Shown here: positions 43,584 to 63,560 of the stretch, in pieces | Position numbering within the stretch: position 1 is the stretch's first letter | Layout of the letters: each line of letters opens with the position of its first letter | NCBI GenBank assembly: GCA_030740795.1 | Contig: JASLWO010000047.1 | Span: 1 to 64,000 of the forward strand | Source: Acidimicrobiales bacterium | Lineage (GTDB): Bacteria; Actinomycetota; Acidimicrobiia; Acidimicrobiales; UBA8592 | Reading direction: 5' to 3' | DNA length: 64,000 nucleotides | Made by a program: the position numbers and the translations under genes | The notes under the pieces: model-generated | What the model was told of the DNA's origin: nothing | What the model saw: the letters and a program-made list of their open reading frames with translations, nothing else | Databases searched by the model: none

Positions 43584-45044
43584 ATGAACGAAAATTCTAA
43601 TGAAGAGGTCTTGACCGATGAGTCCAAAGCATTTTCGTACGGGCTGAACATTATTGAGAAGAGCGAACCGTTAGTAGCGGAGTACATTCGTGGAGAATTA
43701 GGAAATCAACGTAACCAGTTAAAGCTCATTGCTTCAGAGAATTACGCTTCACCTGCTGTCCTTTTAGCTATGGGTAACTGGTTCAGCGACAAATACGCTG
43801 AAGGAACCCCTGGCCACCGGTTCTACGCTGGTTGTGAATTTGTAGATAAAGTTGAAACATTAGCTAGCGAACACGCTAAAGACCTTTTCGACGCTCGCTA
43901 TGCATATGTGCAGCCACATTCTGGCATAGACGCTAACTTGGTTGCTTTCTGGTCTCTTCTCGCATACCGAGTTGAAGTCCCTTTTCTTGAGGCGCATGGA
44001 TCGAAACACGTTAATGACCTCACCGAAAATGATTGGGCGGTTCTTCGAAAAGCTTTCGGGGATCAGCGAATGATCGGCATGTCTCTTGATGCAGGAGGTC
44101 ACCTTACTCACGGGTTTCGCCCTAATATCTCTGGAAAACTTTTTGATCAACGATCGTACGGTGTTGACCCTGAAACTGAAAGGGTGGATTATGACGCTAT
44201 CCGAAGCCTTGCTCAAGATTTCCGACCGTTAATAATTGTCGCTGGATACTCCGCTCATCCAAGAAAAATAGATTTTGCGAAGATGCGCGAAATAGCTGAT
44301 GACGTTGACGCTGTCCTAATGGTGGATATGGCGCATTTCGCTGGTCTTGTAGCCGGGAAGGTCTTCACCGGAGATTTCGATCCGATACCTCACGCTCATA
44401 TTGTTACTTCCACGACTCATAAATCCCTTCGTGGGCCCCGTGGTGGAATTGTGCTTTCTAACGAAGAAGATCTAACTGAACATATAGATAAAGGTTGCCC
44501 GATGGTGCTTGGTGGCCCACTCGCCAATGTCATGGCAGCGAAAGCTGTGGCTTTTGCTGAGGCGAAAACGGAATCATTTCGGTCGTATGCTCAACAAGTC
44601 GTCGATAACGCTAATGCCTTGGCTGAAGGCATAAAGAAACGCGGAGGTCGTCTAGTAACAGATGGCACTGACAATCATCTTGTCCTTGTCGATGTCCGTA
44701 GTTTCGGTTTGACAGGACGCCAAGCAGAGAGCGCTCTGGAAGAGTCAGGGGTAATCGTAAATAGGAATTCCGTACCTTTTGACCCAAATGGCGCCTGGTA
44801 CACGTCAGGCATTCGTTTGGGAACTCCTGCTTTGACCAGCGTGGGAATGAATTGTGACGACATGGACCATATCGCAGAAATTATATGTTCAACTTTGAAA
44901 GCGACGGAACCGTTGACTACTAGCTCTGGAGAGATGTCTAAAGCTAAGTATGATCTTTCTGGTTCGGTTCAGAGTGAGAACCGGACTCTATGCGCTGAGC
45001 TTCTTGGTCGGAACCCGTTGTACCCTGAGGTTGGTTTACCGTAA
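43584..45044 (+). CDS. glyA: Serine hydroxymethyltransferase
   Basis: [56 protein letters not shown]; start at MNENSNEEV (43584). Confidence 0.95.
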
Positions 45045-45060
45045 AAACCTTATTTTGAGA

Positions 45061-45516
45061 TTACAAAAGGTCGTCGATTTTCTGAACACGGTCGGCATGA
45101 CGTCCGCCTTCGAATTCCGCACTGATAAAAGCGAAAAGCGCTTCTTTGGCTATTTCTGGTCCGATTAGTCTTTCTCCTAAGCAAATAATATTCGCGTTGT
45201 TGTGTTCTCTTGCTAAGTGAGCTGAGGTGACGTCGTGGATTGTAGCTGCTCGAACACCCGGTATTTTATTAGCTGCTATCCCTATCCCTATTCCACTTCC
45301 ACAAACTAGCAACCCGAGGTCCGCGTCGCCTCCAGCGACTGCTCGTCCAACCACTGCCCCGTAATCTGGGTAATCAACCCGGTCGGGTGTTTTCGTTCCA
45401 AGGTCTATGACTTCGTGCCCTAATTCCTTCAAATAGTTGACCAATTCTTGCTTGAGGGCCAATCCTGCGTGATCGCATCCTGCCGCTATTTTCTCTTCGG
45501 CTTTATATGTGTTCAT
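45061..45516 (-). CDS. rpiB: Ribose-5-phosphate isomerase B
   Basis: IAAGCDHAGLALKQELVNYLKELGHEVIDLGT; LLVCGSGIGIGIAANK. Confidence 0.94.
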   Translation of the reverse strand: MNTYKAEEKIAAGCDHAGLALKQELVNYLKELGHEVIDLGTKTPDRVDYPDYGAVVGRAVAGGDADLGLLVCGSGIGIGIAANKIPGVRAATIHDVTSAHLAREHNNANIICLGERLIGPEIAKEALFAFISAEFEGGRHADRVQKIDDLL

Positions 45517-45582
45517 GTGTTAGACGGTAGTGCGGTTATCTTGTCCATGTGGAGAAATTCTGAGAAAAGAGCTAGTGGAAAG

Positions 45583-46215
45583 TTATGTTTGTTCTAACCC
45601 GTTAAGTAGCTGAAGGATCTGTGTTTCGCTTATAGGACCTTCACGGATTACTTCTGGGTTGGCTTTGGATAAGTCAACGATTGTTGAAGCGGCTCCGTGG
45701 TCGCATTCTCCGCCATCAATTCCGACTTCGACCTCTTGGAAAAGCTCAGCGATCTCTTGTAGAGCCACTGGGGTTGGTTTCCCATGGAGATTTGCGCTGG
45801 TTGTTGCAAGAGGTCCAGTTCGGGATATCAGTTCTCTTATGAAATCATGGTTCGGGCAACGTACGGCGATGGTTTCTTCCTCATCGGCGGAGTGGCAGAA
45901 GTCCGAGAGTACATCTGGGAGGATTAATGTTAAAGGCCCAGGCCAAAAAGCATCAACCAGTTTGGTCATTGCCGGGCTGTCGTGAGAACTGATTTCGTTG
46001 ATTTGGTTTTTATCGCTTAGCAGTAAAGGCAAGGGCATTGTCGTAGGCCGTTTTTTCAGTTCGAAGATTTTATTTATCGCTGAAGGGAATTTGGGTAGCG
46101 CTCCAATCCCGTAGACGGTATCGGTTGGGAAAATCACTACTCCTCCAGCTAGTAGGGTGTCTGCTGAATTTTTTAGGGCATGTGCCCTGCTTTTGGAAAG
46201 ATCTATGATTTCCAT
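45583..46215 (-). CDS. L-threonylcarbamoyladenylate synthase (Sua5/YrdC family)
   Basis: GGVVIFPTDTVYGIGAL, FELKKRPTTMPLPLL, FWPGPLTLIL, TTSANLHGKPTP. Confidence 0.93.
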   Translation of the reverse strand: MEIIDLSKSRAHALKNSADTLLAGGVVIFPTDTVYGIGALPKFPSAINKIFELKKRPTTMPLPLLLSDKNQINEISSHDSPAMTKLVDAFWPGPLTLILPDVLSDFCHSADEEETIAVRCPNHDFIRELISRTGPLATTSANLHGKPTPVALQEIAELFQEVEVGIDGGECDHGAASTIVDLSKANPEVIREGPISETQILQLLNGLEQT

Positions 46216-47105
46216 AAGCAGCTCATTACACGCGATTTCTGGGTTAAGTCTTTATGAATTTCAATATTTTCGTAACCTATTTCTTTAGCTTTTTGTGACA
46301 TGGGTTCAATCTGGTTTGGAGCCATTTCTATAGCTAGCGCTCCTTTGGGTTGTAACCAAATGCGGGCTTCATCCAATATTGTTTCAATGTCTTCAGTGCC
46401 TTTTTCTCCTGCATATAACGCCATGTGCGGTTCCCAGTTAGCTACTTCTGCCGGCAGAGACTCTTTAGTTGAGATGTATGGAGGGTTTGATACGACTAAT
46501 GAGAATGATTCTTTGAGTTCCTCGGGGATAGTTTCGAACCATGAGCTACGCATGATTTGAACTTTTCTAGCATGGTTCCCCAATCCGGTTAGATTAGCTG
46601 CTGCTACTTTTAACGCCTCTTCTGAGCTATCTACGAGAATCACTTCAACATCTTCGCGTTCTTGCGCTATGGATAAACCGATCGCCCCTGATCCTGTACC
46701 GAAGTCCCCTACTAGGTGTGGAGTTTGGTTAGTTCCATTTGTGAGAAGCTTGTGAGCCACATCAACTAATATCTCGGTTTCTGGCCGTGGTATGAGGACC
46801 CGGTCATCAATAAACAAGTCTAGGTTCCTGAATCCCCATGAGCCCAGAGCGTATTGCAGTGGTTCTCCGTCCAAGCGTTTTTTAAGCATTATCTCGAAAT
46901 GTTTAATTCCTAGAGTGGGAGCTGCCATGTTCATTGCTGAAGCGAATTGGGCTCCTTCATATCCGGATGCTTTCTCAACAATCCATTTTGCTTCCGTAGC
47001 TGAAGTTTCTGTATCCGTGGATGCGAGTTGTTCTTTGGCTTTGTTATAGAGCTGATGCCACGAGACCTCTTCTTGAGCTATCTCTCGAGGGTCTTGTGAG
47101 GTCAT
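46203..47105 (-). CDS. prmC: Peptide chain release factor N5-glutamine methyltransferase
   Basis: VLIPRPETEILVD, GDFGTGSGAIGLSIA, VVSNPPYIS. Confidence 0.95.
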   Translation of the reverse strand: MTSQDPREIAQEEVSWHQLYNKAKEQLASTDTETSATEAKWIVEKASGYEGAQFASAMNMAAPTLGIKHFEIMLKKRLDGEPLQYALGSWGFRNLDLFIDDRVLIPRPETEILVDVAHKLLTNGTNQTPHLVGDFGTGSGAIGLSIAQEREDVEVILVDSSEEALKVAAANLTGLGNHARKVQIMRSSWFETIPEELKESFSLVVSNPPYISTKESLPAEVANWEPHMALYAGEKGTEDIETILDEARIWLQPKGALAIEMAPNQIEPMSQKAKEIGYENIEIHKDLTQKSRVMSCLWKS

Positions 47106-48175
47106 TCTTCTGTTTCTATTTTGGTTAATTGGGTTGTTCTTTCATCTTCCGAGAGCGCATCAACAACATGGTTCATTTCTCCGGCGAGAATTCGGTCCAG
47201 TTTGTAGAGTGTGAGCCCTATCCTGTGGTCCGTGACCCGATTTTCCTTGAAATTGTAAGTCCGTATTTTTTCTGACCGTCCACCGCCACCCATTTGGTCT
47301 TTTCTTGTAGCTGATTGTTCCGCCTGAACTCGTTCTTGTTCTGCTTGGAGTAGCCGCGATCGTAAAACAACCATGGCTCGAGCCTTATTCTGTAGTTGGC
47401 TTTTCTCGTCTTGCATCGAAACGATAATCCCTGTCGGTTTATGCGTGATGCGGACTGCTGAGTCAGTTGTGTTAACGGATTGCCCTCCGGGACCCGACGC
47501 TCTGAAAACATCGACTTGCAAGTCTGATTCTTGAATGCTTACATCTATCTCATCTGCTTCTGGCAGCACTGAAACAGTGGCCGAAGATGTATGTACCCGA
47601 CCTTGAGTTTCTGTGACAGGAACTCGTTGGACGCGGTGAGGTCCCCCTTCATATTTCATCTGACCCCAGACGTCTTGACCTTTCAGGATGAACGTTATTG
47701 TCGTAAATCCGCCCATGTCAGAGTGCTGACTATTGAGGACTTCAAGCTTCCAACCTTTTTTGCCTCCAAAGCTTGAATACATTTCAAACAAGTCTCTTGC
47801 AAAGAGATTAGCTTCTTCCCCTCCTTCAGCGCCTCGAATTTCAATTATGACGTTCTTGTCTTCATTGGGGTCTTTGGGGATTAGAAGATGTCGTAGTTCT
47901 TCTTCTATGGTTTCTATGGTTTCTTGGTTCTGGTTTATTTCTTCCCTGAGTATTTCTCGTTCTTGACCGTCAGCTTCTGAAAGCATTTCTTTAGCTACCA
48001 ATAAATCATCTGATGCAGACCTGATCCCACGTATGCAATTAACAATGTTTTCAAGTTCGCTGTACCGTTTTGCTGCCTTTGCGTACTCTTTTTGGTCAGC
48101 TAATAGGTCTTGATCGCCCAGTCGATCTTGAAGATCCAAGAATTCTTGTTCTAGTTCTTCATGTAGATCTGCCAT
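47102..48175 (-). CDS. prfA: Peptide chain release factor 1
   Basis: IEIRGAEGGEEANLFARDLFEMY; GGQ motif RASGPGGQSVNTTDSAVRITH. Confidence 0.97.
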   Translation of the reverse strand: MADLHEELEQEFLDLQDRLGDQDLLADQKEYAKAAKRYSELENIVNCIRGIRSASDDLLVAKEMLSEADGQEREILREEINQNQETIETIEEELRHLLIPKDPNEDKNVIIEIRGAEGGEEANLFARDLFEMYSSFGGKKGWKLEVLNSQHSDMGGFTTITFILKGQDVWGQMKYEGGPHRVQRVPVTETQGRVHTSSATVSVLPEADEIDVSIQESDLQVDVFRASGPGGQSVNTTDSAVRITHKPTGIIVSMQDEKSQLQNKARAMVVLRSRLLQAEQERVQAEQSATRKDQMGGGGRSEKIRTYNFKENRVTDHRIGLTLYKLDRILAGEMNHVVDALSEDERTTQLTKIETEE

Positions 48176-48250
48176 GAAGTGAGAATACCTTTACTTTCGC
48201 TTTAAATCTGTGTTGCTGAATTGATTAATTCTAAGAAACCATCTACCAGA

Positions 48251-49228
48251 CTAGCTGGGCCAAGGTTCTTCGGTCTTTAAGAAACGATGAGGGACCTTAA
48301 GGTGCTTTGCTTGCCTTTCAAGCACTGGATACTTATCTCTCTCTGACTGAATCATCCAGATTTCATCAGCTTGTGTTGATACTGACAATCCAGATGCGAT
48401 GGGGATAGCGTTCAGGTCAACCCCAACTGAAGCAACTATTAGAACCTTTGTGTTCTCAACTCTGGCTAACGCTGCCGCTGGGGTGGTTTCTGTAATCGCT
48501 TTAGACTCGGTGGCCACAGGCAGCCGGCGTACTTCTTCCAATCCTGAATTCTCCGGAGAGTTAACGAGTTCAGAAATTAACCATTTAGGTCTAGATACGC
48601 GGTTAAGCGGATGCGGTCGTGCTTGTTTATTTCTATAGTGAAGCACCTCTGAAACCACTCGGGAAAGTTTCTCTTCTGTGGATTCATTGCCATCTACTAG
48701 TTTGTGGGCTTCCTGGTCATATATTCCAACCCCGACCTGTAAAGCCGATTCACCTTCTGAGCCCTCTACTACTCGAGCCACCTCTAATCCCTTTATCTCT
48801 CCTTTGGTCATCCCATTTTCTTGAACTATCTCGCATCCGTTTGTTTCTAATAAAGAAGCAATAGTTGGGTTTAGAGGTTGGGGTGCATGGCGTTCTTCGA
48901 GTTTCAACTCTGGATGAGGGACCAGTTTGTTTCCCTCAACCACCCATAACCTGTGTTTGGTCGCTAAACCCATGGTTTGTTCAAGTAATAAGTGGTCTGA
49001 TGCGTCAACGACAAGGTTGATGTCCGTTTCGTCAGTTGCGAGAGCAAGAGAAATCGCTAATGGTGAAACATTTTCATTTGGGGCGTACAAGAATTTTTGC
49101 GTCCCATTTGACCGCATCGCCCCTATTTTGGTTTGGATAGGTTCAAATTGGCTATCAGGGAACGTTTCTCTTAACAGCGAGTCCATTTTGGCTTGATTCA
49201 GCCCTGCGCGCCGGTCAACGTCAATCAT
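48251..49228 (-). CDS. Hypothetical protein
   Basis: Intact 325-aa ORF between prfA and rpmE; no motif recognised. Confidence 0.6.
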   Translation of the reverse strand: MIDVDRRAGLNQAKMDSLLRETFPDSQFEPIQTKIGAMRSNGTQKFLYAPNENVSPLAISLALATDETDINLVVDASDHLLLEQTMGLATKHRLWVVEGNKLVPHPELKLEERHAPQPLNPTIASLLETNGCEIVQENGMTKGEIKGLEVARVVEGSEGESALQVGVGIYDQEAHKLVDGNESTEEKLSRVVSEVLHYRNKQARPHPLNRVSRPKWLISELVNSPENSGLEEVRRLPVATESKAITETTPAAALARVENTKVLIVASVGVDLNAIPIASGLSVSTQADEIWMIQSERDKYPVLERQAKHLKVPHRFLKTEEPWPS

Positions 49229-49253
49229 GCTTGTCGCAAGATTCTCTTATGAA

Positions 49254-49523
49254 CTATTCGCCAGAATCAGTTGAACGTTTTCTTTTCCCGTACCGTTTTT
49301 CGAAACGCTCAACACGCCCAGCGGTATCTACGATCGTCATCGTTCCAGTAAAGAAGGGGTGACTTGTTGACGAGATTGGAACTTTAGCTAAGGGGTATTC
49401 TTGCCCGTCATCCCATTTAATCGTTTCGTCAGTTTCAATTGTTGACCTAGTGATCCAAGATTCCCCTGATGATGTATCTTGAAAAACTACTGCCCGGTAT
49501 TCAGGGTGAATGTCTGGTTTCAT
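49254..49523 (-). CDS. rpmE: Type B 50S ribosomal protein L31
   Basis: [29 protein letters not shown]...[31 protein letters not shown]; no zinc Cys; start at 49523. Confidence 0.92.
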
Positions 49524-49604
49524 TGTTCTCTCCACGGATTTCGTCTTATTGATCGTATCTTTAGATTTCTGTTCGCACACCCTGATGAGGGATTGAGTTG
49601 CTAG

Positions 49605-51101
49605 CTATGAGTAGGTTTCGAGGAGACTTTCGTTATCTTCAGTGGCGACGATTTTCTCTAGGAGCAACTCCATTCCGCTTGTAACTGTTCCTTTCGACGC
49701 TGCTTCCCTGATCTCAGAGCGCAATTTCTGTACCTGTTTGTGCTCTTCAGGCGAGCTCAACCCTTCCTCGTTTTGTGTTCCGGATTTAGCTACGTCTAAG
49801 GCGGGGACGATATGCGCTTCTGCTGTTTCTTGAGAAAGGTAAATTTCTGAGGTGCTTCCACCTTGGAGTTCCTGAAGAAGCATTTCATCGAGTTTCGATG
49901 ATGTTCCACTGAGCACGCTTGCAAAGACTGTTAAAGAGCCACCTTCTTCTACTTTGCGGCCAGCTCCAAAGGAGCGTTTAGGTAGATACAGTGCTGATGC
50001 GTCAACGTCACTTGAGGCTTGCCTCCCTGAATTAGAGGAAATCAAGTTATACGCTCTTGCTAGAGAAGTCATTCCATCAATAATCACTGCGACATCTTCT
50101 CCCATCTCGACCATACGCTTCGCTCTTTCAATAGTGAGTTCAGCGATTGCGACATGTTCTTCGGGAGACTGGTCAAAGGTTGAAGCTATAACATCGGATC
50201 GGGTTAGCCAGCGCCTCATTTCTGTTACATGTTCTGGCGGGGTGTCGATAAGCAGAACAAGTAATTTGACTTCAGAGTAGTTACTTTCAATCGATTGTGA
50301 GATTTCTTTGATGACTTCTTCTCGCCCTGATCGCGGGTTTGAAACGATGAGAACGCGTTGGCCTTTACCAACTGGGGCAACTAGATCTATTGCTCTCGAC
50401 GTTGTATTCTCAGAATCTTCCGCTCTCTCTAACCGCAATTTTGTATCAGGGTAAATCGGAGTTAGGTCAGCGAAATCAGGTCTTTGAACTGCATCATTGG
50501 AGTCGGTTCCGTTAATGGCATCAAGTTGTAGCAGCGCTGGGTTCTTTTCTGAACGATTCGCTGGCCGATAAGCCCCAACGAGATGGTCTCCTTTACGAAG
50601 ACCGTACTGTCGAACAAACTTAACTGGGACATAAACATCGTCTCGGCTAGGGAGGAAGCCATTTACCCTAAGGAAGCCGTAACCGTCGTCTCTAAGGTCA
50701 AGGTGTCCCTCTACTGAAACTGGTTCTCCTGCCCATTCCTCCATCGCTTCTTTACTTTTACCTCTTCGTCGGCGTTTCTTCCCGTTGTTGTCTCCGTTAC
50801 CGCCACCGTTAGTATCATTCGTTTCTTTGCTGGCTTCAGCACGTGCGTCGGCCATGGGGTCTGCTGAGTAAGCAGTGCTGGTGTTTTGGCTGTCAGTGTT
50901 TCCTTCAGCACTTGAGGAATCGTTGTTTTCTTCAGAAGCATCTTCGGACATATCTCCGCTAGCGAGTTCAATGATCGAATCAACTAGGTCGGATTTGGTT
51001 GCACGGGTTGTTGGTTTTCCACCCATCGCTTTAGCTATAGCTATAAGAGAATCCTTATCTTTGGACTCAAGGTCTTTTCTGTCTGGAGTTTCTGTTGTCA
51101 T
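49605..51101 (-). CDS. rho: Transcription termination factor Rho homologue with degenerate ATPase motifs
   Basis: RNA-binding domain GHLDLRDDGYGFLRVNGFLPSRDDVYVPVKFVRQYGLRKGD and LTPIYPDTKLRLE, IDLVAPVGKGQRVLIV, VIASTFDQSPEEH, DGMTSLARAYN; Walker A replaced by SNPRSGREE. Start placed at MTTETPDRKD (51101). Confidence 0.92.
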   Translation of the reverse strand: MTTETPDRKDLESKDKDSLIAIAKAMGGKPTTRATKSDLVDSIIELASGDMSEDASEENNDSSSAEGNTDSQNTSTAYSADPMADARAEASKETNDTNGGGNGDNNGKKRRRRGKSKEAMEEWAGEPVSVEGHLDLRDDGYGFLRVNGFLPSRDDVYVPVKFVRQYGLRKGDHLVGAYRPANRSEKNPALLQLDAINGTDSNDAVQRPDFADLTPIYPDTKLRLERAEDSENTTSRAIDLVAPVGKGQRVLIVSNPRSGREEVIKEISQSIESNYSEVKLLVLLIDTPPEHVTEMRRWLTRSDVIASTFDQSPEEHVAIAELTIERAKRMVEMGEDVAVIIDGMTSLARAYNLISSNSGRQASSDVDASALYLPKRSFGAGRKVEEGGSLTVFASVLSGTSSKLDEMLLQELQGGSTSEIYLSQETAEAHIVPALDVAKSGTQNEEGLSSPEEHKQVQKLRSEIREAASKGTVTSGMELLLEKIVATEDNESLLETYS

Positions 51102-51297
51102 TCTGGTTTTCAATCTGGGAATTTTGTTATAAAGCGCTATTCGCTTTAATTTGACTTCTTTGTCAGGGACTTGGTCCGAGTAACTCACGAAAGAGATGTT
51201 GCTCAGTTTCCTTGCCTAAGAAGGCTTTGTCTGACTATGAAACTTTACCGGAGAAATCGTTAAGACCACAACAGAGGAGAAGAAAACTATTAAACAG

Positions 51298-52695
51298 TCA
51301 ATTCCCTGTTCTGTTCAAAATGAATTCTTTCACGTCTTCCAGGCTGTTTGGCAGGACCGAATAATCTTCTTTTCTCTCGTACAGGTCGTCTAAATGAGGT
51401 GGAAGTTCGGGTTTTATTCCTGTAGCTGTGTGAACTGCTTCCGGGAATTTACTTGGATGCGCTGTAGCTAGGCAGATAATAGGGATATCCGGGTCTTCAT
51501 TGTTGTGTTTAGCTGCCGCTATTCCAACAGCTGTGTGCGGGTCGACCAGTTCCCCGGTTTCTTTGTAAATAGCAGCAATCATTTCTAGGGTTTCATCATC
51601 GTTCACTCGTGAACTAGCCCATTTGATATTAAGTTCTTGAAGCGTTGACGCATCTACCGCTAAAGAACCTTCGTTGTGGAATTGTTCTAGCAACGTTTGA
51701 ACTCTCTGACCGTCTCTGTCAAGTATCTCGAAAAGGAGGCGTTCGAAATTGCTTGAAATTTGAATATCCATTGAGGGGGAAAGTGTCGGGGCGACAGTTC
51801 GTGCTTCCATCTCACCAGTTTTAAAAAACCGGTCAAGGACGTCATTACTGTTGGAAGCGACAATAAATTTTTCAACAGGTAAGCCAGTCAGATGCGCACC
51901 ATAGCCTGCAAAAATATTTCCGAAATTTCCGCTAGGTACACAAAATTTTACTTTTGAGGCACCGGTAACTTCAATTGAAGTCCACCAGTAGTAGACGATC
52001 TGGGCCATTACTCTCGCCCAATTGATTGAATTAACAGCTGACATGTTGATAGCTTGGCTGAATTCATCGTCTCTGAACATGGCTTTTACTAGATTTTGGC
52101 AATCGTCAAAGTTCCCCTCAATGGCGACATTATGAACGTTTAATGAGTCCACGGTAGTCATTTGTCTACGTTGAACTTCACTGGTTTTCCCATGAGGGTG
52201 GAGAATCACGATATCCATAGCTTCCCTGTCCCTACAAGCTTCTATAGCTGCTGAACCGGTATCTCCTGACGTCGCCCCGACAATAGTTATTCTTTCGGAA
52301 CTTTTTCTTAGTTGGTGGTCAAATAAATGCCCCACTAGTTGTAGCGCTACATCTTTGAAAGCCAGAGTCGGACCGTGGAAGAGTTCAGCCAACCAAAGAT
52401 TTTCAGTGATTCTTTTTGTTGGGATAATGCTTTCCGAGGCAAAAGAAGCGTACGTTTTTTCTAATAAATCATTTAGTTCGTCTCTGTTCAATGCATCTTC
52501 TACAAATGGCCAGATAATTTCTCCGGCTAAAGCCGTATATGTTGGCTGTGCTCCCAGGCTTTTTTTAAGGTCGGCGATTTCGTATTTTGGCCAGTGGGTT
52601 GGCAGGTATAACCCTCCGTCAGGGGCTAAACCCTTTAAAAGGACTTCACTGAATGTAACGGGAGGGGCTTGACCTCTCGTGCTTAGGTATCGCAT
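51298..52695 (-). CDS. thrC: Threonine synthase
   Basis: MRYLSTRGQAPPVTFSEVLLKGLAPDGGLYLP; GPTLAFKDVALQLVGHLFD; GATSGDTGSAAIEA. Confidence 0.96.
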   Translation of the reverse strand: MRYLSTRGQAPPVTFSEVLLKGLAPDGGLYLPTHWPKYEIADLKKSLGAQPTYTALAGEIIWPFVEDALNRDELNDLLEKTYASFASESIIPTKRITENLWLAELFHGPTLAFKDVALQLVGHLFDHQLRKSSERITIVGATSGDTGSAAIEACRDREAMDIVILHPHGKTSEVQRRQMTTVDSLNVHNVAIEGNFDDCQNLVKAMFRDDEFSQAINMSAVNSINWARVMAQIVYYWWTSIEVTGASKVKFCVPSGNFGNIFAGYGAHLTGLPVEKFIVASNSNDVLDRFFKTGEMEARTVAPTLSPSMDIQISSNFERLLFEILDRDGQRVQTLLEQFHNEGSLAVDASTLQELNIKWASSRVNDDETLEMIAAIYKETGELVDPHTAVGIAAAKHNNEDPDIPIICLATAHPSKFPEAVHTATGIKPELPPHLDDLYERKEDYSVLPNSLEDVKEFILNRTGN

Positions 52696-52696
52696 C

Positions 52697-53980
52697 TTAA
52701 GTCTCTATGACTCGAATGGTCGTTCCTACTTTCTCTACGCATGAGAGTTGACCTAGTTGGCTTAACGTTTGTCGTAAATTTCGTTCATTGGCTGCATGAG
52801 TTATGAAGACAAGACGGGCTTCCCCACCCATGCCTTCCTGTTCCATTGAACGGATCGATATGTTATTTTCACCAAAGACAGAAGCGACATTAGCTAGAAC
52901 CCCGGGTTCATCAATGACTTGCACACTGATGTAATAAGCGCTCTGCTGTTCATCCATTTCCTTTAGCTCAATTGGGCGTAGTTCCCCTACTCCCCGGCAT
53001 GTTCCACCTACTAAATTATTGGATGCGCCAATGACATCTCCAAGAACAGCTGAAGCAGTGGGTTTACCACCTGCACCTCGGCCGTAAAGCATAAGACTGT
53101 CAATTGCTTGACCTTCAACAAAAACTGCGTTGTAGCTGTCCCTCACCGATGACAAAGGGTGTTCATTGGGGAGCATGGCGGGGTAAACATTAACTTCTAT
53201 CGACCCATTTGACTGTTCAGCCACTGCCAGAAGCTTCACTGTTCGGTTAGATTTCTTCGCAAACGCTATATCTGCGCTGTTAATTTCAGAAATTCCTTGG
53301 TAAGGCACATCGTTAAGAGAGATTTGCGCTCCAAAGGCCACCATCGCAATTATTGCTGCTTTAGAAGCAGCGTCTTGCCCACTGACATCAGCGGTAGGAT
53401 CGCTCTCAGCAAATCCAAGCCTTTGTGCTTCCATAAGAGCATCTTCATACGTGGCACCTGTCTCTGCCATTTGGGAAAGAATAAAGTTTGTAGTTCCATT
53501 TACTATTCCGATCACCCGATCAAGAGGTTCGCCTATCAATGATTCGCGTAGAACACGCATCAAAGGAACCCCTCCCGCTACCGCTGCTTCAAAAAGAAGA
53601 TCGACTCCGTTAGTGTCAGCAAGATTAAATAAGCTAGGTCCTTCTTTGGATAAGAGCTCTTTATTTGCTGTGACTACTGGTTTACCATTTTTGATTGCGG
53701 TTTCAACCAGTTTCTTTGAAGGGCTGGTCCCACCGATCAGTTCAACAACGACATCTACCTTTGAAGAGGAAACAATATCTTCGGGCTTATCTGTCAATAT
53801 TGACCGATCAATCCATTCTCCACGATTTTTTTCTAAATCGTTAACTGCTATAGCTTCTATGATTATTTCTATACCTGTCCTTGAGGCAATAACTTCTTGC
53901 TGGTCCGATATCAAAGCAACGAGAGCGTCGCCGACAACACCGCAGCCGAGAATGCCTAACCGAATTGGAGTTTTTCCCAT
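52697..53980 (-). CDS. hom: Homoserine dehydrogenase
   Basis: IRLGILGCGVVGDALVALI, VTANKELLSKEG, GIVNGTTNFILSQM, C-terminal ACT domain. Confidence 0.96.
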   Translation of the reverse strand: MGKTPIRLGILGCGVVGDALVALISDQQEVIASRTGIEIIIEAIAVNDLEKNRGEWIDRSILTDKPEDIVSSSKVDVVVELIGGTSPSKKLVETAIKNGKPVVTANKELLSKEGPSLFNLADTNGVDLLFEAAVAGGVPLMRVLRESLIGEPLDRVIGIVNGTTNFILSQMAETGATYEDALMEAQRLGFAESDPTADVSGQDAASKAAIIAMVAFGAQISLNDVPYQGISEINSADIAFAKKSNRTVKLLAVAEQSNGSIEVNVYPAMLPNEHPLSSVRDSYNAVFVEGQAIDSLMLYGRGAGGKPTASAVLGDVIGASNNLVGGTCRGVGELRPIELKEMDEQQSAYYISVQVIDEPGVLANVASVFGENNISIRSMEQEGMGGEARLVFITHAANERNLRQTLSQLGQLSCVEKVGTTIRVIET

Positions 53981-54074
53981 TCTTCTAAACTACATGAGCC
54001 AGAGTGCTAGGTGGACGAAATTAATCGGATTTGAGGAGAAGGCATCGCTATTGCAGAAACTAAACGATTCCTAA

Positions 54075-55349
54075 CTAGCCCATGTCAGTATTTAAAAGGT
54101 CTGTTAATTCTTCTCTTCGAACAACCAGTTCAGCTTGGCCTGAATTCACGAAAACTACTGCAGGGCGGAGAACCTTATTGTAATTAGAACCCATTGATTG
54201 ACCATAAGCTCCTGTGACTGGGGTGGCCAATAGATCCCCGACTGTGATGTCTTCGGGGACTGCGCCGTCACGGACCAAAACGTCACCTGATTCGCAATGT
54301 TTCCCAACAAGGGTTACTGGCATTTGCCTTGCAGAGGCAGCGGATCTGGCCAAAAACGTTTCATACCCACTGCCATACAAGGCAGGTCTTGGATTATCGT
54401 GCATGCCTCCATCAACTGCAACGTATGTTCGGATCCCATCAAGTTTCTTTATCGTTCCTACGGTATACAAAGTCACCGCTGCGCTACCAACGATGCTCCT
54501 ACCTGGTTCAGCGGTTACCCGAGCGGTGACACCCCGGTCTTCACACACCTTCCCCACGATCGCTCCCCATTCCGAAATAGATATGGAAGTTTCATTATTT
54601 AAATATGGAACCCCTAAACCACCTCCAACAGAAAGTTCGGGTAGTGAGAAACTATTGGAAAGATCTGCGAGAGTTTCTGTTGATTTTCTAAATGACTCTT
54701 GGGTAAAGACTTGCGACCCGATATGGGCGTGTATTCCGATGAGTTCAATAGCTTTCAAGTTGCTCGCTTTATCTATGGCTTTTTCTGCCAAACCGGTTGA
54801 AACAGTGAAACCAAATTTTGAATCTTCTTCACCAGTTGAGATGTATTCATGTGTGTGAGCTTCAACACCTGGTGTGATGCGGATGAGAGCCTGAATCGGA
54901 CTTCCCCCGTTGGAAAACAATTGTTCAATTTTTGCGATTTCATCGAAACTATCTATAACTATTTTTCCAATCCCATTCTCCATTGCGTATTGCAATTCTT
55001 CATATGATTTATTATTTCCATGCATGGTTAGTTTCGCTGCGGGAACCCCTGCCTCAATAGCTACAAATGCTTCCCCGATTGTTGCCACGTCAAGACCCAT
55101 TCCTTCTTCATAAGCCAATCGAGCCATTGCTTTGCATAGGAATGCTTTCGTTGCATATGAAACGCCATCTGGGAAAGCTTGCACAGCTTCACGGCATCGT
55201 TGTCGAATATGTGCCTCATCGTAAACAAAAAGTGGGGTCCCATATTCCTTAGCTAAATCATCGGCTCGTATACCTGCGAAGGCAACCATCCCATCTTCAT
55301 GAATAGTTGTGTTGTCAGGTAGAAGCGATGAAGAAATTTTCGCAACCAT
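54075..55349 (-). CDS. lysA: Diaminopimelate decarboxylase
   Basis: TPLFVYDEAHIRQRCREAV, VSYATKAFLCKAMARL, GIHAHIGSQ, EPGRSIVGSA, GKHCESGD. Confidence 0.96.
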   Translation of the reverse strand: MVAKISSSLLPDNTTIHEDGMVAFAGIRADDLAKEYGTPLFVYDEAHIRQRCREAVQAFPDGVSYATKAFLCKAMARLAYEEGMGLDVATIGEAFVAIEAGVPAAKLTMHGNNKSYEELQYAMENGIGKIVIDSFDEIAKIEQLFSNGGSPIQALIRITPGVEAHTHEYISTGEEDSKFGFTVSTGLAEKAIDKASNLKAIELIGIHAHIGSQVFTQESFRKSTETLADLSNSFSLPELSVGGGLGVPYLNNETSISISEWGAIVGKVCEDRGVTARVTAEPGRSIVGSAAVTLYTVGTIKKLDGIRTYVAVDGGMHDNPRPALYGSGYETFLARSAASARQMPVTLVGKHCESGDVLVRDGAVPEDITVGDLLATPVTGAYGQSMGSNYNKVLRPAVVFVNSGQAELVVRREELTDLLNTDMG

Positions 55350-55357
55350 TATTTTCC

Positions 55358-56971
55358 CTACATTTTGTCTGGGGCATTTACGCCCAATAAGTCAAGACCC
55401 ACCTTAAGGCCTATCCTCGATGCTACTACTAGGTTAAGTCTTGCATTTGTTAATTTCGGGCTAACGTCTTCTCCAATCACATAGCAATCGTGGTAGAAGC
55501 CGTGAACAGCATTTGCGAAGTCTCTTGTCCATGTAACAATTTTATGTGGGGCAAGTTCCCTCGCTGAAAGATCAATAACTTCTGGAAAGAGTTCTAAGAG
55601 GCGCAGGATTTCTATTTCTCTTTCATGGGTCAGTATTTCCAACTCTTGAACAGAGAGATTGACTTGAGAGAAACCTTCTTCTTCCGCTTTCCGTCCAATG
55701 GAACATAAACGGGCATGTGCCATTTGCACGTAATACACGGGATTTTCCATGGCGTGAGAGGCTGCTAGTTCTAGATCAAATGTCTGCTTTGAATCAACTG
55801 ATTGAAGGAGATACATGAATCTGGTTGCATCCGAACCTATCTCTTCAATTATGCTGCGCAATTCAATAATGTCGCCTTGCCTTTTGGAGAGCTTCACTTC
55901 TTTACCTGACCGGACAAGTTTAACCAGTTGCGTTATCTGAATAGAAAGATCATCTGGGTCGTTCCCTAGCGCGTGCATAGCTGCTTTCATTCGAGCTACA
56001 TAACCATGATGATCAGCTCCCCAGACGTTAATTAACCAATCAGCCCTTTCATATTTATTCCGATGGTAGGCGACGTCTGGAGTTAAATACGTGAGTTCTC
56101 CATCGCTCTTTACGAGCACGCGGTCTTTATCATCGCCAAAAGTCGTTGACGAGAGCCATGTCGCCCCATCCTTCTCATATGATGCGTTGCCCGCTGTTAG
56201 ATCTCCCAAAACTTTCTCTATGTCTCCATTCTCTATCATTGACTTCTCGCTAAACCAAGTATCAAAATGAATACCTAATCCTGCAAGTGTTTCTTGTTGA
56301 TCTAACTGAGCATGGGCGCACCCCCAATCAATAATCTCTGGCAGAGTAAGCCCTTCTGGCATCAACGAAGCCCATTCAATGATGTACTCACCGCCATAAC
56401 CTTCTTCAGGGACGGCCGTGCCTTCCTTTCTTGCTTGAAGAGACTGTCCGTAAATCTGCATCTGAAGTCCGCGGTCATTCATATAGAACTCTCGATGAAC
56501 GCTATAGCCAACAGCAGAAAGAATATTTGCTATGGCATCTCCATAGCATGCCCCTCTAGCATGCCCGGCATGCAGGGGTCCCGTAGGGTTAGCGCTTACG
56601 AATTCAACATTGACATTTAGGCCATCACCAATCTCTAGTCGTCCAAATTCCGTTGAACCCTTTTCAAGAACCTCGATAAGAATCTGGTACAACCAACTTA
56701 AAGAAACTTTAAAATTGATGAAACCAGGGCCTGCCGTTGAAACACCCACTACCCCTTCAGGCAAATTTCCATTTATGTGTTCCGAAATCTCATCAGCTAA
56801 TTCTCGGGCTTGTCTACCTGCTTCTTTTGAGATAACCAGTGCAAGATTCGAAGACCAATCTCCGTGGTCGCGATTAGCTGGTCGTTCCAGATTTATGTCG
56901 GATGGAATAGGAGAGATTCCCAATTCCCCCATTGCCTGGCGCAGAGAAGATTTGATTGTTTCGTTAATCAT
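55358..56971 (-). CDS. argS: Arginyl-tRNA synthetase
   Basis: VEFVSANPTGPLHAGHARGACYGDAIANIL; GADHHGYVARMKA; DALRB anticodon-binding C-terminus. Confidence 0.96.
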   Translation of the reverse strand: MINETIKSSLRQAMGELGISPIPSDINLERPANRDHGDWSSNLALVISKEAGRQARELADEISEHINGNLPEGVVGVSTAGPGFINFKVSLSWLYQILIEVLEKGSTEFGRLEIGDGLNVNVEFVSANPTGPLHAGHARGACYGDAIANILSAVGYSVHREFYMNDRGLQMQIYGQSLQARKEGTAVPEEGYGGEYIIEWASLMPEGLTLPEIIDWGCAHAQLDQQETLAGLGIHFDTWFSEKSMIENGDIEKVLGDLTAGNASYEKDGATWLSSTTFGDDKDRVLVKSDGELTYLTPDVAYHRNKYERADWLINVWGADHHGYVARMKAAMHALGNDPDDLSIQITQLVKLVRSGKEVKLSKRQGDIIELRSIIEEIGSDATRFMYLLQSVDSKQTFDLELAASHAMENPVYYVQMAHARLCSIGRKAEEEGFSQVNLSVQELEILTHEREIEILRLLELFPEVIDLSARELAPHKIVTWTRDFANAVHGFYHDCYVIGEDVSPKLTNARLNLVVASRIGLKVGLDLLGVNAPDKM

Positions 56972-57147
56972 GAAAGTACCTTCCAGGCCTTGAATTCCTA
57001 TCGTATGTTCCTGCGAAGGTCAACGCTTGTTATTACCCTATTAATCTTATTTATTTACCTGTCAGGAGAAAAAAAGTTTGTATTCCCCGAGCTTTAAGAT
57101 TGCCCTATAACGTGAACAGGGTGAGCGAGCATGAACATCCATGTGCT

Positions 57148-58335
57148 ATGGAGGGAGAATTTGCGCCTTCTAAAATCGGGGTGCTCCAGTTGTGGCCACC
57201 AGTAATACTGGCCCCAATGGCGGGAGTCACTGACGTGCCTTTTCGGAGCCTGTGCAAATCATTCATGGAAGAAGGGCTGAAGAGTAGCGGCGGGGAATTC
57301 TCAGTGACTGGTTCTACCCCCGGTTTATTTGTTAACCAAATGATCACAGCTAGAGCGTTTGTCGAAAAAAATGAAAAAACATTGAAATTGGCTGAGTTCG
57401 GTGAAGGCGAAACCCCGAGATCTATCCAACTCTATGGAACAGAACCAGAGTCGCTTGAAGCCGCAGTAAGAGAGCTAGTTGAATTAGAACAAGTTGACCA
57501 TATCGATCTGAATTTCGGTTGCCCTGTCCCAAAAGTTACCAGACACGGTGGGGGTGGAGCGTTGCCATACAAGCGCCCCCTTTTCAAACGAATAATCAGT
57601 TCTGTTGTGCATGCGGCAGCGGAGGAAATCCCCATCACGGTTAAGTTTAGAATGGGCATTGACGACTCTCACTTAACCTTTCTTGATGCGGGTAAAATCG
57701 CTGAGGATGAAGGGGTTTCTGCGATAGCGCTTCATGGTAGAACCGTTGAGCAACTCTACAGTGGCGAGGCGAACTGGAACGCTATTGCAGAACTGAAACA
57801 ACATGTAAGATCCATCCCTATTTTCGGGAACGGAGATATTTGGGAGGCGCAAGATGCGATCCAGATGATGCACTATTCTCAAGCCGATGGTGTCGTTATC
57901 GGACGTGGTTGCCTTGGACGACCTTGGCTTTTCAAACAACTAGGAGAGATCTTCTCAGGAGTTAACCCTTCGCCTTTCCCTTCGCTAGGAGAAGTTGGGG
58001 AAGTCATGTATGAACACGCTGAAAGCGTTGTTTCATGGAACGGTTCAGAGAACGGCTTGCGTGCTTTCCGCAAACATGCTTCCTGGTATCTAACGGGCTT
58101 CGCCGTTGGGAAAGATATCAGGAGAGAAATTCATCAAATAGAAACGCTAGATGACCTCGCCGAAATCATAAGCCGTTTCGACCCTGAGTTATCGTTACCT
58201 CAAGAAGCGTACCGGATTCCGCGTAGTCACAAAGGCGGACCCAAAAAAGTTGCTTTACCCGAAGGTTGGTTGGATGAGCCCTTCGTTGATTTGACTCTTA
58301 CAGAAAAAGCTGAACAGATTACCTCAGGGGGTTAA
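57148..58335 (+). CDS. dusB: tRNA-dihydrouridine synthase
   Basis: VILAPMAGVTDVPFRSLC, DLNFGCPVPKVTRHGGGGALPYKR, IALHGRTVEQLYSG, IGRGCLGRPWLF. Confidence 0.94.
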   Translation: MEGEFAPSKIGVLQLWPPVILAPMAGVTDVPFRSLCKSFMEEGLKSSGGEFSVTGSTPGLFVNQMITARAFVEKNEKTLKLAEFGEGETPRSIQLYGTEPESLEAAVRELVELEQVDHIDLNFGCPVPKVTRHGGGGALPYKRPLFKRIISSVVHAAAEEIPITVKFRMGIDDSHLTFLDAGKIAEDEGVSAIALHGRTVEQLYSGEANWNAIAELKQHVRSIPIFGNGDIWEAQDAIQMMHYSQADGVVIGRGCLGRPWLFKQLGEIFSGVNPSPFPSLGEVGEVMYEHAESVVSWNGSENGLRAFRKHASWYLTGFAVGKDIRREIHQIETLDDLAEIISRFDPELSLPQEAYRIPRSHKGGPKKVALPEGWLDEPFVDLTLTEKAEQITSGG

Positions 58336-58386
58336 ATAATTCCCCGCTTTGACCTTCGTGTTGATGTGACTACCCTGAAAATATTC

Positions 58387-58458
58387 GCCCTCGTAGCTCA
58401 GGGGATAGAGCATTGGCCTCCGGAGCCATGTGCGCAGGTTCGAATCCTGCCGAGGGCG
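58387..58458 (+). tRNA. tRNA-Arg(CCG)
   Basis: Full cloverleaf: acceptor gccctcg/cgagggc, D-arm gctc/gagc, anticodon stem ttggc/gccat with loop ctCCGga, T-arm gcagg-ttcgaat-cctgc; CCA not encoded. Confidence 0.95.
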
Positions 58459-58538
58459 CAAAATTCCGATAGATAACAAGGAAATCAAAGTTTTCTTTCC
58501 TGCAACATTCTGACTTGCTCAGGATGTATCCTCGCATC

Positions 58539-59717
58539 ATGGCAAATGTAGAAACATCACCTAAAGCGAAAAAAGCTCGCTGGTCTTTCCAATGGAAAGA
58601 ATTACATGAAGAGGTGATCACATCTGGGCTTTGTACTGGTTGCGCAGGCTGCGTTATTTCTTGCCCCCATGACGTAATCGGGTACAAACATGAACCCGGT
58701 CAATATAAACCCTTTCATCTTGAAGATGAACTGGGTATTTCTAATTGTGTTCATGGGGAGAAAGGATGCACGAGTTGCACGCGTGCTTGCCCAAGGTTCC
58801 GAGATTGGGAAACGCAAGCCGATGATCATTTGTTTGGGAGAGTACGAGAAGATGGAGAAATTGCCGGAATCTACAAAGATGTTCTTCTTACTAGAGCATC
58901 CGATGATTTCGTCTACGATACTGGACAAGATGGGGGCTTGGTTTCATCAATTCTCATCTGGTGTTTGGAGAATAACGTAATTGACGGAGCTTTAGTCTCC
59001 GGTCTTGAAAACACCGATGGTGCAGAAAGTAGCGCCGGTTGGAAAGCAAAACCTATGGTTGCGACCAATCGGGATGAGGTACTTCAAGGAGCTGGCAGCC
59101 GCTATACGTATTCTGCCAATACCATGGCTTACCCGGAAGCTAAAGAACGAGGTCTGTCACGGCTAGCCCTTGTCGGAATGAGTTGCCAAACATCTATAGC
59201 GCCGGTGATGTGGAATCGAAAAATAGGTAAAGTTGGCAAACCTATAAAATTAAACATCGGGCTTCTTTGTTCAAAATCTTTTGATGACTCTATGTTTGAT
59301 GAACTCTTCTGGGTTAAATACGGTCTTCACAAAAATGAGATATCGAAGATGAACATAAAGGGTGTCTTCCAAGTGTGGATGAAAAACGGTGATTATCACG
59401 AAATAAATTTGAAGGAATGCCATGCTTGGACGCGAGAAGGGTGCACTCATTGTCCTGATTTCGCAGCTGAACACGCAGATATTTCAACCGGTGGGATTGG
59501 TGACCTAACCGACTGGACTCTCACTATTGTTAGGACTGATTTAGGGAGAGCCATCATTGAAGCCATGATTGCTGATGGGGTAATTGAAACCCGTCCCGGT
59601 GATGATGACCCCGGCGCTATTTCCCTAATGCAGAAACTAGCTCAAAAAAGCAGGGCTCGATGGCCTGAATGGGCAAATGAAAGCCCGAGGTTAGGACTCC
59701 CTACGAAGAAACAGTAG
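58539..59717 (+). CDS. Coenzyme F420 hydrogenase/dehydrogenase beta-subunit-like Fe-S protein
   Basis: CTGCAGCVISCPHDVIGY and CTSCTRACPRF Fe-S cysteines; GQDGGLVSSILIWCLENNVIDGALVS; GMSCQTSIAP. Confidence 0.85.
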   Translation: MANVETSPKAKKARWSFQWKELHEEVITSGLCTGCAGCVISCPHDVIGYKHEPGQYKPFHLEDELGISNCVHGEKGCTSCTRACPRFRDWETQADDHLFGRVREDGEIAGIYKDVLLTRASDDFVYDTGQDGGLVSSILIWCLENNVIDGALVSGLENTDGAESSAGWKAKPMVATNRDEVLQGAGSRYTYSANTMAYPEAKERGLSRLALVGMSCQTSIAPVMWNRKIGKVGKPIKLNIGLLCSKSFDDSMFDELFWVKYGLHKNEISKMNIKGVFQVWMKNGDYHEINLKECHAWTREGCTHCPDFAAEHADISTGGIGDLTDWTLTIVRTDLGRAIIEAMIADGVIETRPGDDDPGAISLMQKLAQKSRARWPEWANESPRLGLPTKKQ

Positions 59718-60183
59718 GTGACGAGTCTCTAATACAAGTCTGGAAAATTTCAAGTAGATTCTCGTTGAATTCTTTTTCGCCTTTCTTGAAATCTTCATCT
59801 AGTTCTTTGAATCTCTCATAGGCGTCATTTTCTATTTCCGATAGCAGCGCCGAAGAATCTAGTAACGCCGTTGAGCCCTTCTTGAAATGCTCTACGAGCC
59901 TTGTATAGCTGCACCCACAAACGCTAAGAAGCCCTGTCTCTTGGATCGCTACAAGGTCCGGAATTGAATCAGAAGCTCCGGTTACGCAGCCTTTGAGAAA
60001 GTTTCTCTGAACTTCTGGGACAAGATTAGGATCTTCTCCTTCTTGAAGAGCTCCAATTAGATTCGCTGCTATTGGCCCGGGATCTTTCGAGAAGCTTCCA
60101 TCTCCCGGGTTAGAAGCGCAACCGAGTAATACACATAGAGCGCACAATGCAAGAGGCAGTCGAAGTCTTATCAACTCTGACAA
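59701..60183 (-). CDS. Predicted lipoprotein, tandem paralogue B
   Basis: Lipobox CVLLGC; LVPEVQRNFLKGCVTG...VCGCSYTRLVEHF. Confidence 0.65.
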   Translation of the reverse strand: MSELIRLRLPLALCALCVLLGCASNPGDGSFSKDPGPIAANLIGALQEGEDPNLVPEVQRNFLKGCVTGASDSIPDLVAIQETGLLSVCGCSYTRLVEHFKKGSTALLDSSALLSEIENDAYERFKELDEDFKKGEKEFNENLLEIFQTCIRDSSPTVSS

Positions 60184-60593
60184 GAGGCAAAAATCTCCTT
60201 GTAATCACTGCCAAGCGATGCGTATCCTCCCTCTTTTTGGAGAGATTTGTCTAAATCTTCAAAGAGTTTAAAGGCAGCTTCTTCAGTGGCGCTAACTTCA
60301 CGAACATAAGCAACCAAATCGTCATAACTGCACGCACACGCACTTGCTAAAGAAATAGGTGAAATTGAGGGTTCTCTTTGAATCCCTCCGATCATGCATC
60401 CTTCTAAAAAGTTTCTTTGTACTAATGGGACGAGGTCGAGGTCTTCTCCATTTACTAGAAGTTGATCTCCAAATTCGTATATTTTCTCAGGTAGTGGACC
60501 TGGTTGTTCAAAAAAGCTTTTTGGTTTCCCTGATGAACCACAAGCAGTCAGGAGAAGCAGTCCAAGTACGATAAGTGAAAAACGTAGTTTCAT
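60171..60593 (-). CDS. Predicted lipoprotein, tandem paralogue A
   Basis: Lipobox LLLTAC; LVPLVQRNFLEGCMIGG...ACACSYDDLVAYV; 13-bp overlap with the next gene. Confidence 0.65.
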   Translation of the reverse strand: MKLRFSLIVLGLLLLTACGSSGKPKSFFEQPGPLPEKIYEFGDQLLVNGEDLDLVPLVQRNFLEGCMIGGIQREPSISPISLASACACSYDDLVAYVREVSATEEAAFKLFEDLDKSLQKEGGYASLGSDYKEIFASCQS

Positions 60594-60662
60594 GATGTCA
60601 GACGCTATCGGATTAAAACGAAACCTCCGACCATGCAGGCAAATCGTTTGGGTAGTTTTTCA

Positions 60663-61331
60663 CTAATTGGCTGATAAGGCCTTTGCACGGTCTAAAACAT
60701 CATCGAACATCTTCTCTGTCAACCTTCCTGTAAATGTGTTTTGCTGACTCACGTGATAGCTGCACAGTAGAGTTCGGCCACCGGATAGTGGAACTTCAAG
60801 CCCGTGCCCGAACTTTGGCCTAGGTTTAATATTGAGTTCTTTCGCTACAGATGCATATCCAATTCCTCCCAGCGCAAGAATTACTTTAACGTTTGGCAGG
60901 AAATCCAATTCCCGTTGGAGGAAATCGCTGCATCTAGACTGTTCTTGGGCTGTTGGCTTATTCTGAGGTGGGGCGCAGCGCACTGGAGCGGTTATATAAG
61001 CGTCTCCTAAGATAAGGCCATCTCCCCTACTGGTCGCTTCTGCTTGATTCGCGTACCCTGCCCGATGCAGAGCTGCAAATAAAAAATCTCCGCTTCGATC
61101 TCCGGTAAACATCCTCCCAGTTCTATTTGCACCATGGGCAGCAGGTGCCAAACCCACAATTAGTAAACGTGATTTTGGATCTCCAAACGATGGGACTGGC
61201 TTCCCCCAGTAAGTTTCGCTTTTATATGAAGCCCTCTTTTCACGCGCTACTTTTTCTCTCCACTTGACCAGACGAGGGCAAGCACGGCACGCAATAATCT
61301 CGTCATTTATCTCTTTAAGGTCCATCTGCAT
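60663..61331 (-). CDS. Family 5 (UDGb-type) uracil-DNA glycosylase
   Basis: IIACRACPRLVKWREKVA, LIVGLAPAAHGANRTGRMFTGDRSGDFLF, CAPPQNKPTAQEQSRCSDFL. Confidence 0.9.
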   Translation of the reverse strand: MQMDLKEINDEIIACRACPRLVKWREKVAREKRASYKSETYWGKPVPSFGDPKSRLLIVGLAPAAHGANRTGRMFTGDRSGDFLFAALHRAGYANQAEATSRGDGLILGDAYITAPVRCAPPQNKPTAQEQSRCSDFLQRELDFLPNVKVILALGGIGYASVAKELNIKPRPKFGHGLEVPLSGGRTLLCSYHVSQQNTFTGRLTEKMFDDVLDRAKALSAN

Positions 61332-61437
61332 GGACGCTAGCCGTAGTTACTCAAACTCGTTGCCTGATTTGAAAAGTTTCTTTGAATCAATCGTTTCTTG
61401 ATTCCATTGACTCCTACAGCCGATAACGTAATTAACG

Positions 61438-62103
61438 GTGAGTAAAGAAAATAATTCCAAAAAATCAGGTAAGGCGGCCACACTCGTTGTGCTCGTTCGT
61501 CATGGCCATACCCCCACTACTGGGAAAGTTCTGCCGGGTCGAGCTAAAGGACTCCACTTGAGTCCCGAAGGGAAGTCACAGGCAGAAAAGGTCGCTGACC
61601 ATTTTTCTGTAGTGAATGGAATCGCTGCCGTGTATAGCTCGCCTATGGAAAGAACAATAGAAACCGCTAAACCAATAGCAAATAGTGTCGGCGTGAAAGT
61701 ACGTAGACACCGTGGACTGATTGAAGCTGATTTCGGTTCGTGGACAGGAAAGAAGTTATCTGATTTAAGAAAGTTGCCCGATTGGAAACAAGTTCAAAAC
61801 AATCCTTCAGGGTTCAGATTCCCGTCTGGTGAGTCATTTCTTGAAATCCAATCTCGAATAGCAAAGGCCATTGCTGACATAGTAGAAGAACACCGAGGTG
61901 AAATCGTAGTAGCAGTTTCCCATGCCGATACGATCAAAACGCTTATAGCTACAGCACTGGGAACGCCTCTTGACCTTTTCCAGAGGATCAATATTTCACC
62001 CTGCTCTGTTTCGCCAATACTTTACGGTCCGTCTTCGCCACATGTTCTGGCAGTGAACTCAACCGGAGCTGACATCATATCCCTACTACCAAAGACCTCA
62101 TGA
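61438..62103 (+). CDS. Histidine phosphatase-superfamily protein (MSMEG_4193-family-like); GTG start
   Basis: VVLVRHGHTPTTGKVLPGRAKGLHLSPEGKSQAEKVA, YSSPMERTIETA, VVAVSHADTIKTLIA. Confidence 0.88.
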   Translation: MSKENNSKKSGKAATLVVLVRHGHTPTTGKVLPGRAKGLHLSPEGKSQAEKVADHFSVVNGIAAVYSSPMERTIETAKPIANSVGVKVRRHRGLIEADFGSWTGKKLSDLRKLPDWKQVQNNPSGFRFPSGESFLEIQSRIAKAIADIVEEHRGEIVVAVSHADTIKTLIATALGTPLDLFQRINISPCSVSPILYGPSSPHVLAVNSTGADIISLLPKTS

Positions 62104-62585: not shown

Positions 62586-62592
62586 CTTTGAT

Positions 62593-63333: not shown

Positions 63334-63530
63334 AATTCGTTAATCAAGATATGCGATCGTGAAGAACCTTCACTATCACTTAAACAGATAGAATAAGAGG
63401 CTTTTTTCGAATCCTCACCGCTAAATAATCTCTTCTCCATGGAGAATTCTCTCATTTCCTAAAAATTTAACTCAAAACAGCTTTTTCGCAGACATTGAAA
63501 ATCTAGGTGTGCTATTATTAAGGAACTTCA

Positions 63531-63560
63531 TCGCTTGACAGCTGTCAGGCGATTTTCTTA
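63531..63560 (+). terminator. Candidate intrinsic terminator downstream of the SCO1664-family gene
   Basis: tCGCTTGAC-AGCT-GTCAGGCGa hairpin followed by a T-rich tract (ttttcttattttt). Confidence 0.5.

Follow-up and report, generated by a model that had tools for sequence, protein, structure and literature searches.

A Rho homologue with an eroded ATPase motor and a complete RNA-binding site in the rho locus of a marine actinobacterium

The window analyzed here, positions 1 to 64,000 of contig JASLWO010000047.1 (assembly GCA_030740795.1), comes from a marine actinobacterium of the Acidimicrobiales and carries a rho gene whose motor has lost most of its catalytic residues. The gene is a single open frame on the minus strand (ATG at 51101, stop at 49605) that encodes 498 amino acids in 498 open codons; the full reading frame is thus intact, as an earlier note made from the letters alone had stated. 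Its product is Rho by descent: homology to Rho spans the entire protein, both the Rho RNA-binding domain (PF07497, E=2.6e-22) and the RecA-like ATP-synt_ab domain (PF00006, E=1.4e-20) are matched, and the closest solved structure is that of M. tuberculosis Rho (PDB Rho chains, E down to 3.5e-92). The family model NF006886 accepts the protein as Rho (405.7 bits, cut-off 315); the TIGR00767 equivalog model scores it at 402.4 bits, below a cut-off of 509.45 that none of the same-genus rho copies in the usual slot passes. An AlphaFold monomer model built from 11 sequences is of moderate confidence (predicted local distance difference test, pLDDT, 59.6), and its top Foldseek matches in the PDB are all Rho chains; because the model is moderate and was built from so few sequences, no claims about interfaces are drawn from it.

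The protein was aligned to E. coli Rho, whose numbering is used for residue changes throughout. The motor substitutions are K181R, K184R, T185E, E211T, R212P, R269S, K336Q, R347Q, R353H and R366Q; D265 (D342 in the window protein), R272 and K326 are unchanged. Walker A has no GKT, with RSGREE in its place, and the catalytic Glu, the Arg valve and the Arg finger are all missing (E211T, R212P, R366Q). The alignment bears out what the earlier note had read from the translation, i.e., the Lys-to-Arg and Thr-to-Glu changes in Walker A, the loss of the catalytic Glu and adjacent Arg in LLIDTPPEHVT and the altered arginine-finger region. The note also gave the sequence and place of QELQGGSTSE correctly, but not its identity: this segment aligns with EFKGTGNME, the K336 region, and not with the Q-loop, which occupies residues 278-290 in E. 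coli (PMC1950744). R269S, a further motor loss, had been overlooked.

The RNA site tells the opposite story. The set F62/F64/R66/D78/Y80/E108 is complete in the window, where it reads Y, F, R, D, Y and E, and Tyr at 62 is also found in canonical relatives. Against a canonical reference set of 16 sequences of the order, 68 of the 177 near-invariant positions of the ATPase domain are altered in the genus vs 0 of 25 in the OB fold (Fisher p=2e-5), in agreement with the earlier claim that the RNA-binding domain is intact. Sixteen canonical-invariant positions are fixed genus-wide to one different residue, and a new signature (RSGR, DTPPE, DGMTSLARAYN) is fixed in the genus. Pairwise identity of the P-loop is 61% in the genus vs 100% among the 16 canonical Rhos; the figure for the OB core is 99%. 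Coordinates of these segments and of the neighboring features are collected in Table 1.

Table 1. Features of the window rho gene and its surroundings (window positions; residues of the window protein).
Feature	Residues	Position	Strand	Remarks
Putative pseudo-Rho gene		49605..51101	-	498 aa; sole rho detected in genome
N-terminal helical domain, Rho_N-like	1-49	50955..51101	-	weak Rho_N match; modelled helices 8-47
Linear motif YSADPMADARAEA, disordered linker	78-90	50832..50870	-	family-specific
OB-fold primary RNA-binding domain	126-206	50484..50726	-	Pfam and residue alignment
Degenerate Walker A VLIVSNPRSGREE	250-262	50316..50354	-	K184R, T185E
Catalytic Glu/Arg-valve segment LLIDTPPEHVT	283-293	50223..50255	-	E211T, R212P
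Walker B segment DGMTSLARAYN		50046..50078	-	D265 retained, R269S
Q-loop equivalent, altered	about 354-367	50001..50042	-	
QELQGGSTSE replacing EFKGTGNME	410-419	49845..49874	-	K336Q
Arginine-finger region AEAHIVPALDVAKSGTQNEEGL	427-448	49758..49823	-	R353H, R366Q
thrC, upstream neighbor, synteny anchor		51298..52695	-	
Promoter-like element upstream of rho, GTTG ... GGTAAAGT		51242..51272	-	thrC-rho gap, conserved in genus
rpmE (bL31), downstream neighbor, synteny anchor		49254..49523	-	
Uncharacterized 325-aa open reading frame (ORF325) between rpmE and prfA		48251..49228	-	syntenic across many families of the order
prfA (RF1), synteny anchor		47102..48175	-	

The losses are a property of the genus. 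Its records are independent Acidimicrobiales metagenome-assembled genomes (MAGs) from several studies; among the 19 genomes, 16 have rho in the usual slot, and in all 16 the protein is motor-dead, with E211A/T, R212P, R269H/S and R366K/Q in common. Two subclades can be told apart. Subclade A, which includes the window, has RSGR[EKQ] and DTPPE with K184R fixed; subclade B retains GKT and has [DE]APPE, His in place of R269, Gln in place of R353 and Lys in place of R366. The presence of GKT in subclade B, where the catalytic residues are gone, implies that the catalytic losses came first and the P-loop was lost later in subclade A; most simply, the catalytic Glu, the Arg valve and the arginines would have disappeared in or before the common ancestor of the genus. 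The same comparison bears on a still-active ATPase that relies on substitute residues, e.g., Arg for the P-loop Lys. Retention of D265 and of the RecA fold, together with the GKT of subclade B, would fit such an enzyme, yet subclade B lacks E211, R212, R353 and R366, and the two subclades carry different replacements, making this explanation highly improbable.

The source genome is itself a MAG (90% complete, 72 contigs), which could favor a misassembly, a contaminant or a pseudogene present in this MAG alone. This explanation is refuted: the same motifs occur in independent MAGs of several studies, the frames are intact, the synteny is normal and purifying selection is evident at the codon level. 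The earlier note had proposed checking whether related orthologues share the substitutions, and had taken canonical motifs in close orthologues as a sign of an artefact; the substitutions are shared genus-wide, not private to the window contig, and the outcome speaks against an artefact.

No second Rho was found in the window's own 90% complete genome, where the other weak matches are the ATP synthase subunits of the window. An extra canonical rho is present in two sister bins, G010 and G013, on contigs of 36% and 34% GC vs about 45%, and on account of this difference is most likely contamination; apart from these contigs, no further Rho was found in the remaining same-genus genomes. A second canonical Rho is therefore rejected, and the suggestion that the window protein partners a second active Rho is not supported; with 16 genomes surveyed it is very unlikely that such a copy was missed systematically.

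An ancient paralogue locus is likewise rejected by synteny. The order thrC-rho-rpmE-ORF325-prfA is common to motor-dead and canonical rho genes within the same GTDB families, several of which have both kinds in that slot (e.g., f1, with L032 as the canonical copy, f18, f20, f27, f34 and f60), and in the sister genus G019 a canonical rho lies in the same thrC-rho-rpmE slot. The thrC-rho-rpmE-prfA synteny recognized in the earlier note thus extends to the sister genus and to many families, and the orthologous position means that the window rho is a vertically inherited ancestral gene altered in place; replacement of rho by transfer in place may be an alternative to vertical change.

Motor loss is not confined to this genus. 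In a survey of the order, 224 of 299 genomes have Rho above the cut-off, and the P-loop Lys is lost in at least nine families: f1, f18 (four genera), f20 (two genera), f27, f34, f41, f53, f59 and f60. Each of the nine also contains GKT members, and both P-loop states occur within a single genus in g61 (f59) and g133 (f18). A Rho tree computed without the motif columns requires at least 8-9 state changes, the exact number being uncertain owing to long branches, and an approximately unbiased (AU) test rejects a single clade of all K184-lost Rhos (p_AU 8.8e-8). One ancestral motor loss is rejected on this tree, subject to the same long-branch caution; the family count does not depend on the tree. 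Motor loss arose many separate times in related bacteria. L118 (G249) is apparently an early case, with K184Q and E211A but T185, R353 and R366 retained; the continued presence of R353 and R366 indicates that the catalytic site itself was lost first.

Outside the order, in other parts of the phylum Actinomycetota, eroded Rhos are found in f76, f91, f93, f101 and f114. Two single-contig genomes, G419 and G494 (97-100% complete), have one eroded Rho each, and a second Rho was not found in either. A full Rho match was not found in the near-complete genomes G321, G381, G391, G428, G437, G482 and G505 of f81 or G411 and G463 of f104, which have apparently lost rho completely. Among the more divergent proteins, the Q-loop region is deleted in L183-L187 (f101) and L180-L182 (f93), with E211 replaced in several, and the family-model match of the f101 Rhos covers the N-terminal two thirds only. 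The eroded frame of L131 (G274, f34) has one internal TGA. Two internal TGA codons, a possible frameshift or recoding, also occur in the canonical-looking Rho frame of L172 (G512, f87).

These observations bring up relaxed selection en route to gene loss: where Rho-dependent termination is no longer needed, decay would begin in the motor and end with the disappearance of the gene. The families without a Rho match (f81, f104), the truncated or loop-deleted and weakly constrained Rhos of f101 and f93, and the internal TGA in the f34 frame all fit this course, which predicts omega (dN/dS) climbing toward 1 in both domains. The window genus does not follow it. NG86 omega for its ATPase domain is about 0.04 (0.035-0.08 in pairs with dS of 0.3-1.3), next to mostly 0.03-0.12 for the ATPase domain in canonical pairs, and a value of about 0.04 in a dead domain excludes a free-running pseudogene here. 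Constraint is inverted: the median dN(OB)/dN(ATPase) is 1.62 in canonical pairs (n=20) vs 0.23 in eroded pairs (n=15; p=2.4e-6), such that the OB fold evolves more slowly than the ATPase domain in eroded pairs and faster in canonical ones; seven divergent pairs, mostly with GKT, are intermediate at 0.46. Fixation of the new signature, fixation of 16 canonical-invariant positions to one other residue, and an OB fold more constrained than in canonical Rho also stand against decay, and relaxed selection is accordingly an unlikely explanation. Judged by its codons, the window protein is a pseudoenzyme under selection, with catalytic residues gone and purifying selection kept.

Relaxed purine bias has been reported in rho-less Bacilli (PMC13323073). 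In homologous coding segments around rho, a small region compared between 21 eroded and 20 GKT genomes, such relaxation is unsupported: purine content is 0.510 in eroded vs 0.500 in GKT genomes (p=0.055), the wrong direction. C-rich stretches near rho are unchanged between the two groups (p=1.0); AT-skew differs (p=5e-4), largely owing to the window genus. Extra intrinsic terminators as compensation were not found within 44001-64000, with 16 terminator-like sites vs 21.1 in shuffles. The purine-bias and terminator tests are both weak.

We consider it likely that the window protein is an RNA-binding, non-translocating natural pseudo-Rho in the normal rho locus. The residue losses, their genus-wide fixation, the recurrence, the purifying selection at omega of about 0.04, the complete RNA site and a constraint that has moved to the OB fold all support a pseudo-Rho over random decay, as the earlier note had proposed. 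ATPase and helicase activity would be absent and RNA binding retained: ATP hydrolysis is presumably lost, and in the subclade of the window ATP binding probably as well, while the OB-fold site would still grip pyrimidine-rich nascent RNA. Most likely, the pseudo-Rho functions by binding nascent or untranslated RNA independently of ATP, and its ex-motor domain persists as a folded scaffold or as a surface for binding. Its effect would come from occupancy, whether as a roadblock, by protecting RNA or by slowing RNA polymerase (RNAP), rather than from translocation and pulling out of the transcript.

Several points weigh against this interpretation. Folding or oligomerization alone could account for the purifying selection seen in the ATPase domain; the OB domain used in the dN comparison is a short stretch of 68 codons, and several pairs have dS values close to saturation. 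The ATPase domain of f91, f93 and f101 looks relaxed, with omega of 0.5-1.1 at unreliable dS. Finally, because some families have no rho altogether, motor loss may in part be a stage toward gene loss.

One form of the pseudo-Rho explanation, which we regard as doubtful, retains termination: the protein would dock on RNAP, capture nascent RNA by its OB domain and inactivate RNAP allosterically without ATP hydrolysis. The genus has NusG, with normal scores, and the OB domain is the best-conserved part of the protein. Structures of E. coli Rho-NusA-NusG-RNAP complexes, as summarized in PMC9908020, suggested that open-ring Rho changes RNAP allosterically before RNA translocation; the same authors, however, put ring closure and translocation ahead of final release (PMC9908020), and in M. 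tuberculosis the disruption of elongation complexes by Rho requires a site competent for hydrolysis (PMC4499133).

Compared with canonical Rho (TIGR00767/NF006886; E. coli, M. tuberculosis), the putative pseudo-Rho shares the N-terminal domain, the OB site, the RecA-type fold and the gene neighborhood, but lacks the catalytic residues except D265, scores 402 vs 509 bits with TIGR00767 and has its constraint moved from the motor to the OB fold. The catalytically dead E. coli E211A and M. tuberculosis E386A mutants, the latter not drastically altered in oligomer state or in ATP and RNA binding, have lost the same Glu, which is Thr or Ala in the window genus; they are single engineered changes, whereas about ten are combined naturally under selection here (PMC4499133). 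NF041509 paralog_Rho2 (Rho, short form) is likewise a Rho relative that deviates from the standard form; the window protein, by contrast, reaches 361 bits against a cut-off of 628, is full-length with an N-terminal domain and is the sole rho product detected. The notion of a motor-independent actinobacterial Rho appears in a 2010 proposal by Kalarickal, as discussed in PMC4499133, that M. tuberculosis Rho brings about termination with no efficient motor activity; that protein, unlike the window Rho, has the catalytic residues and later proved to be a real motor. Rho ATPase residues are called highly conserved (PMC8828861), and an alignment of >1200 species, again as cited in PMC4499133, found them conserved where rho is present. 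Text searches of the open literature, which did not cover the phyletic survey of D'Heygere 2013, found no report of a natural motor-less Rho.

Around the gene, the promoter-like element was identified in 13 aligned rho leaders by consensus resemblance only; because this leader element is conserved in the genus, rho is probably expressed. The linker motif YSADPMADARAEA, a possible docking motif, is present only in the window's family, in motor-dead and canonical Rhos alike (including L032 and L033); since the sister genus, whose Rho is canonical, has it too, the motif predates motor loss and is rejected as a pseudo-Rho hallmark. ORF325 has no Pfam match and, at 31-57% identity within the genus, is fast-evolving. 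Elsewhere, the window holds a SAM-I/IV riboswitch (913-1019, minus strand, 65.5 bits) and a tRNA gene (58387-58458, plus strand, Rfam match).

Within one order, ATPase residues have been lost repeatedly while the gene, its locus and its RNA-binding site persist. The result is a natural separation-of-function series, from GKT kept with the catalytic Glu lost, through loss of the P-loop and then of the Q-loop, to no rho, and the debate over motor vs allosteric Rho becomes testable with proteins tuned by evolution. Tentatively, and with limited confidence, motor-less Rho may be a recurrent, selected class in Actinomycetota, a non-translocating factor that senses nascent RNA in pausing, termination or antitermination and that arose many times independently by catalytic inactivation as constraint on the RNA site sharpened. 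Genomes annotated as having Rho may be without Rho-dependent termination in the usual sense.
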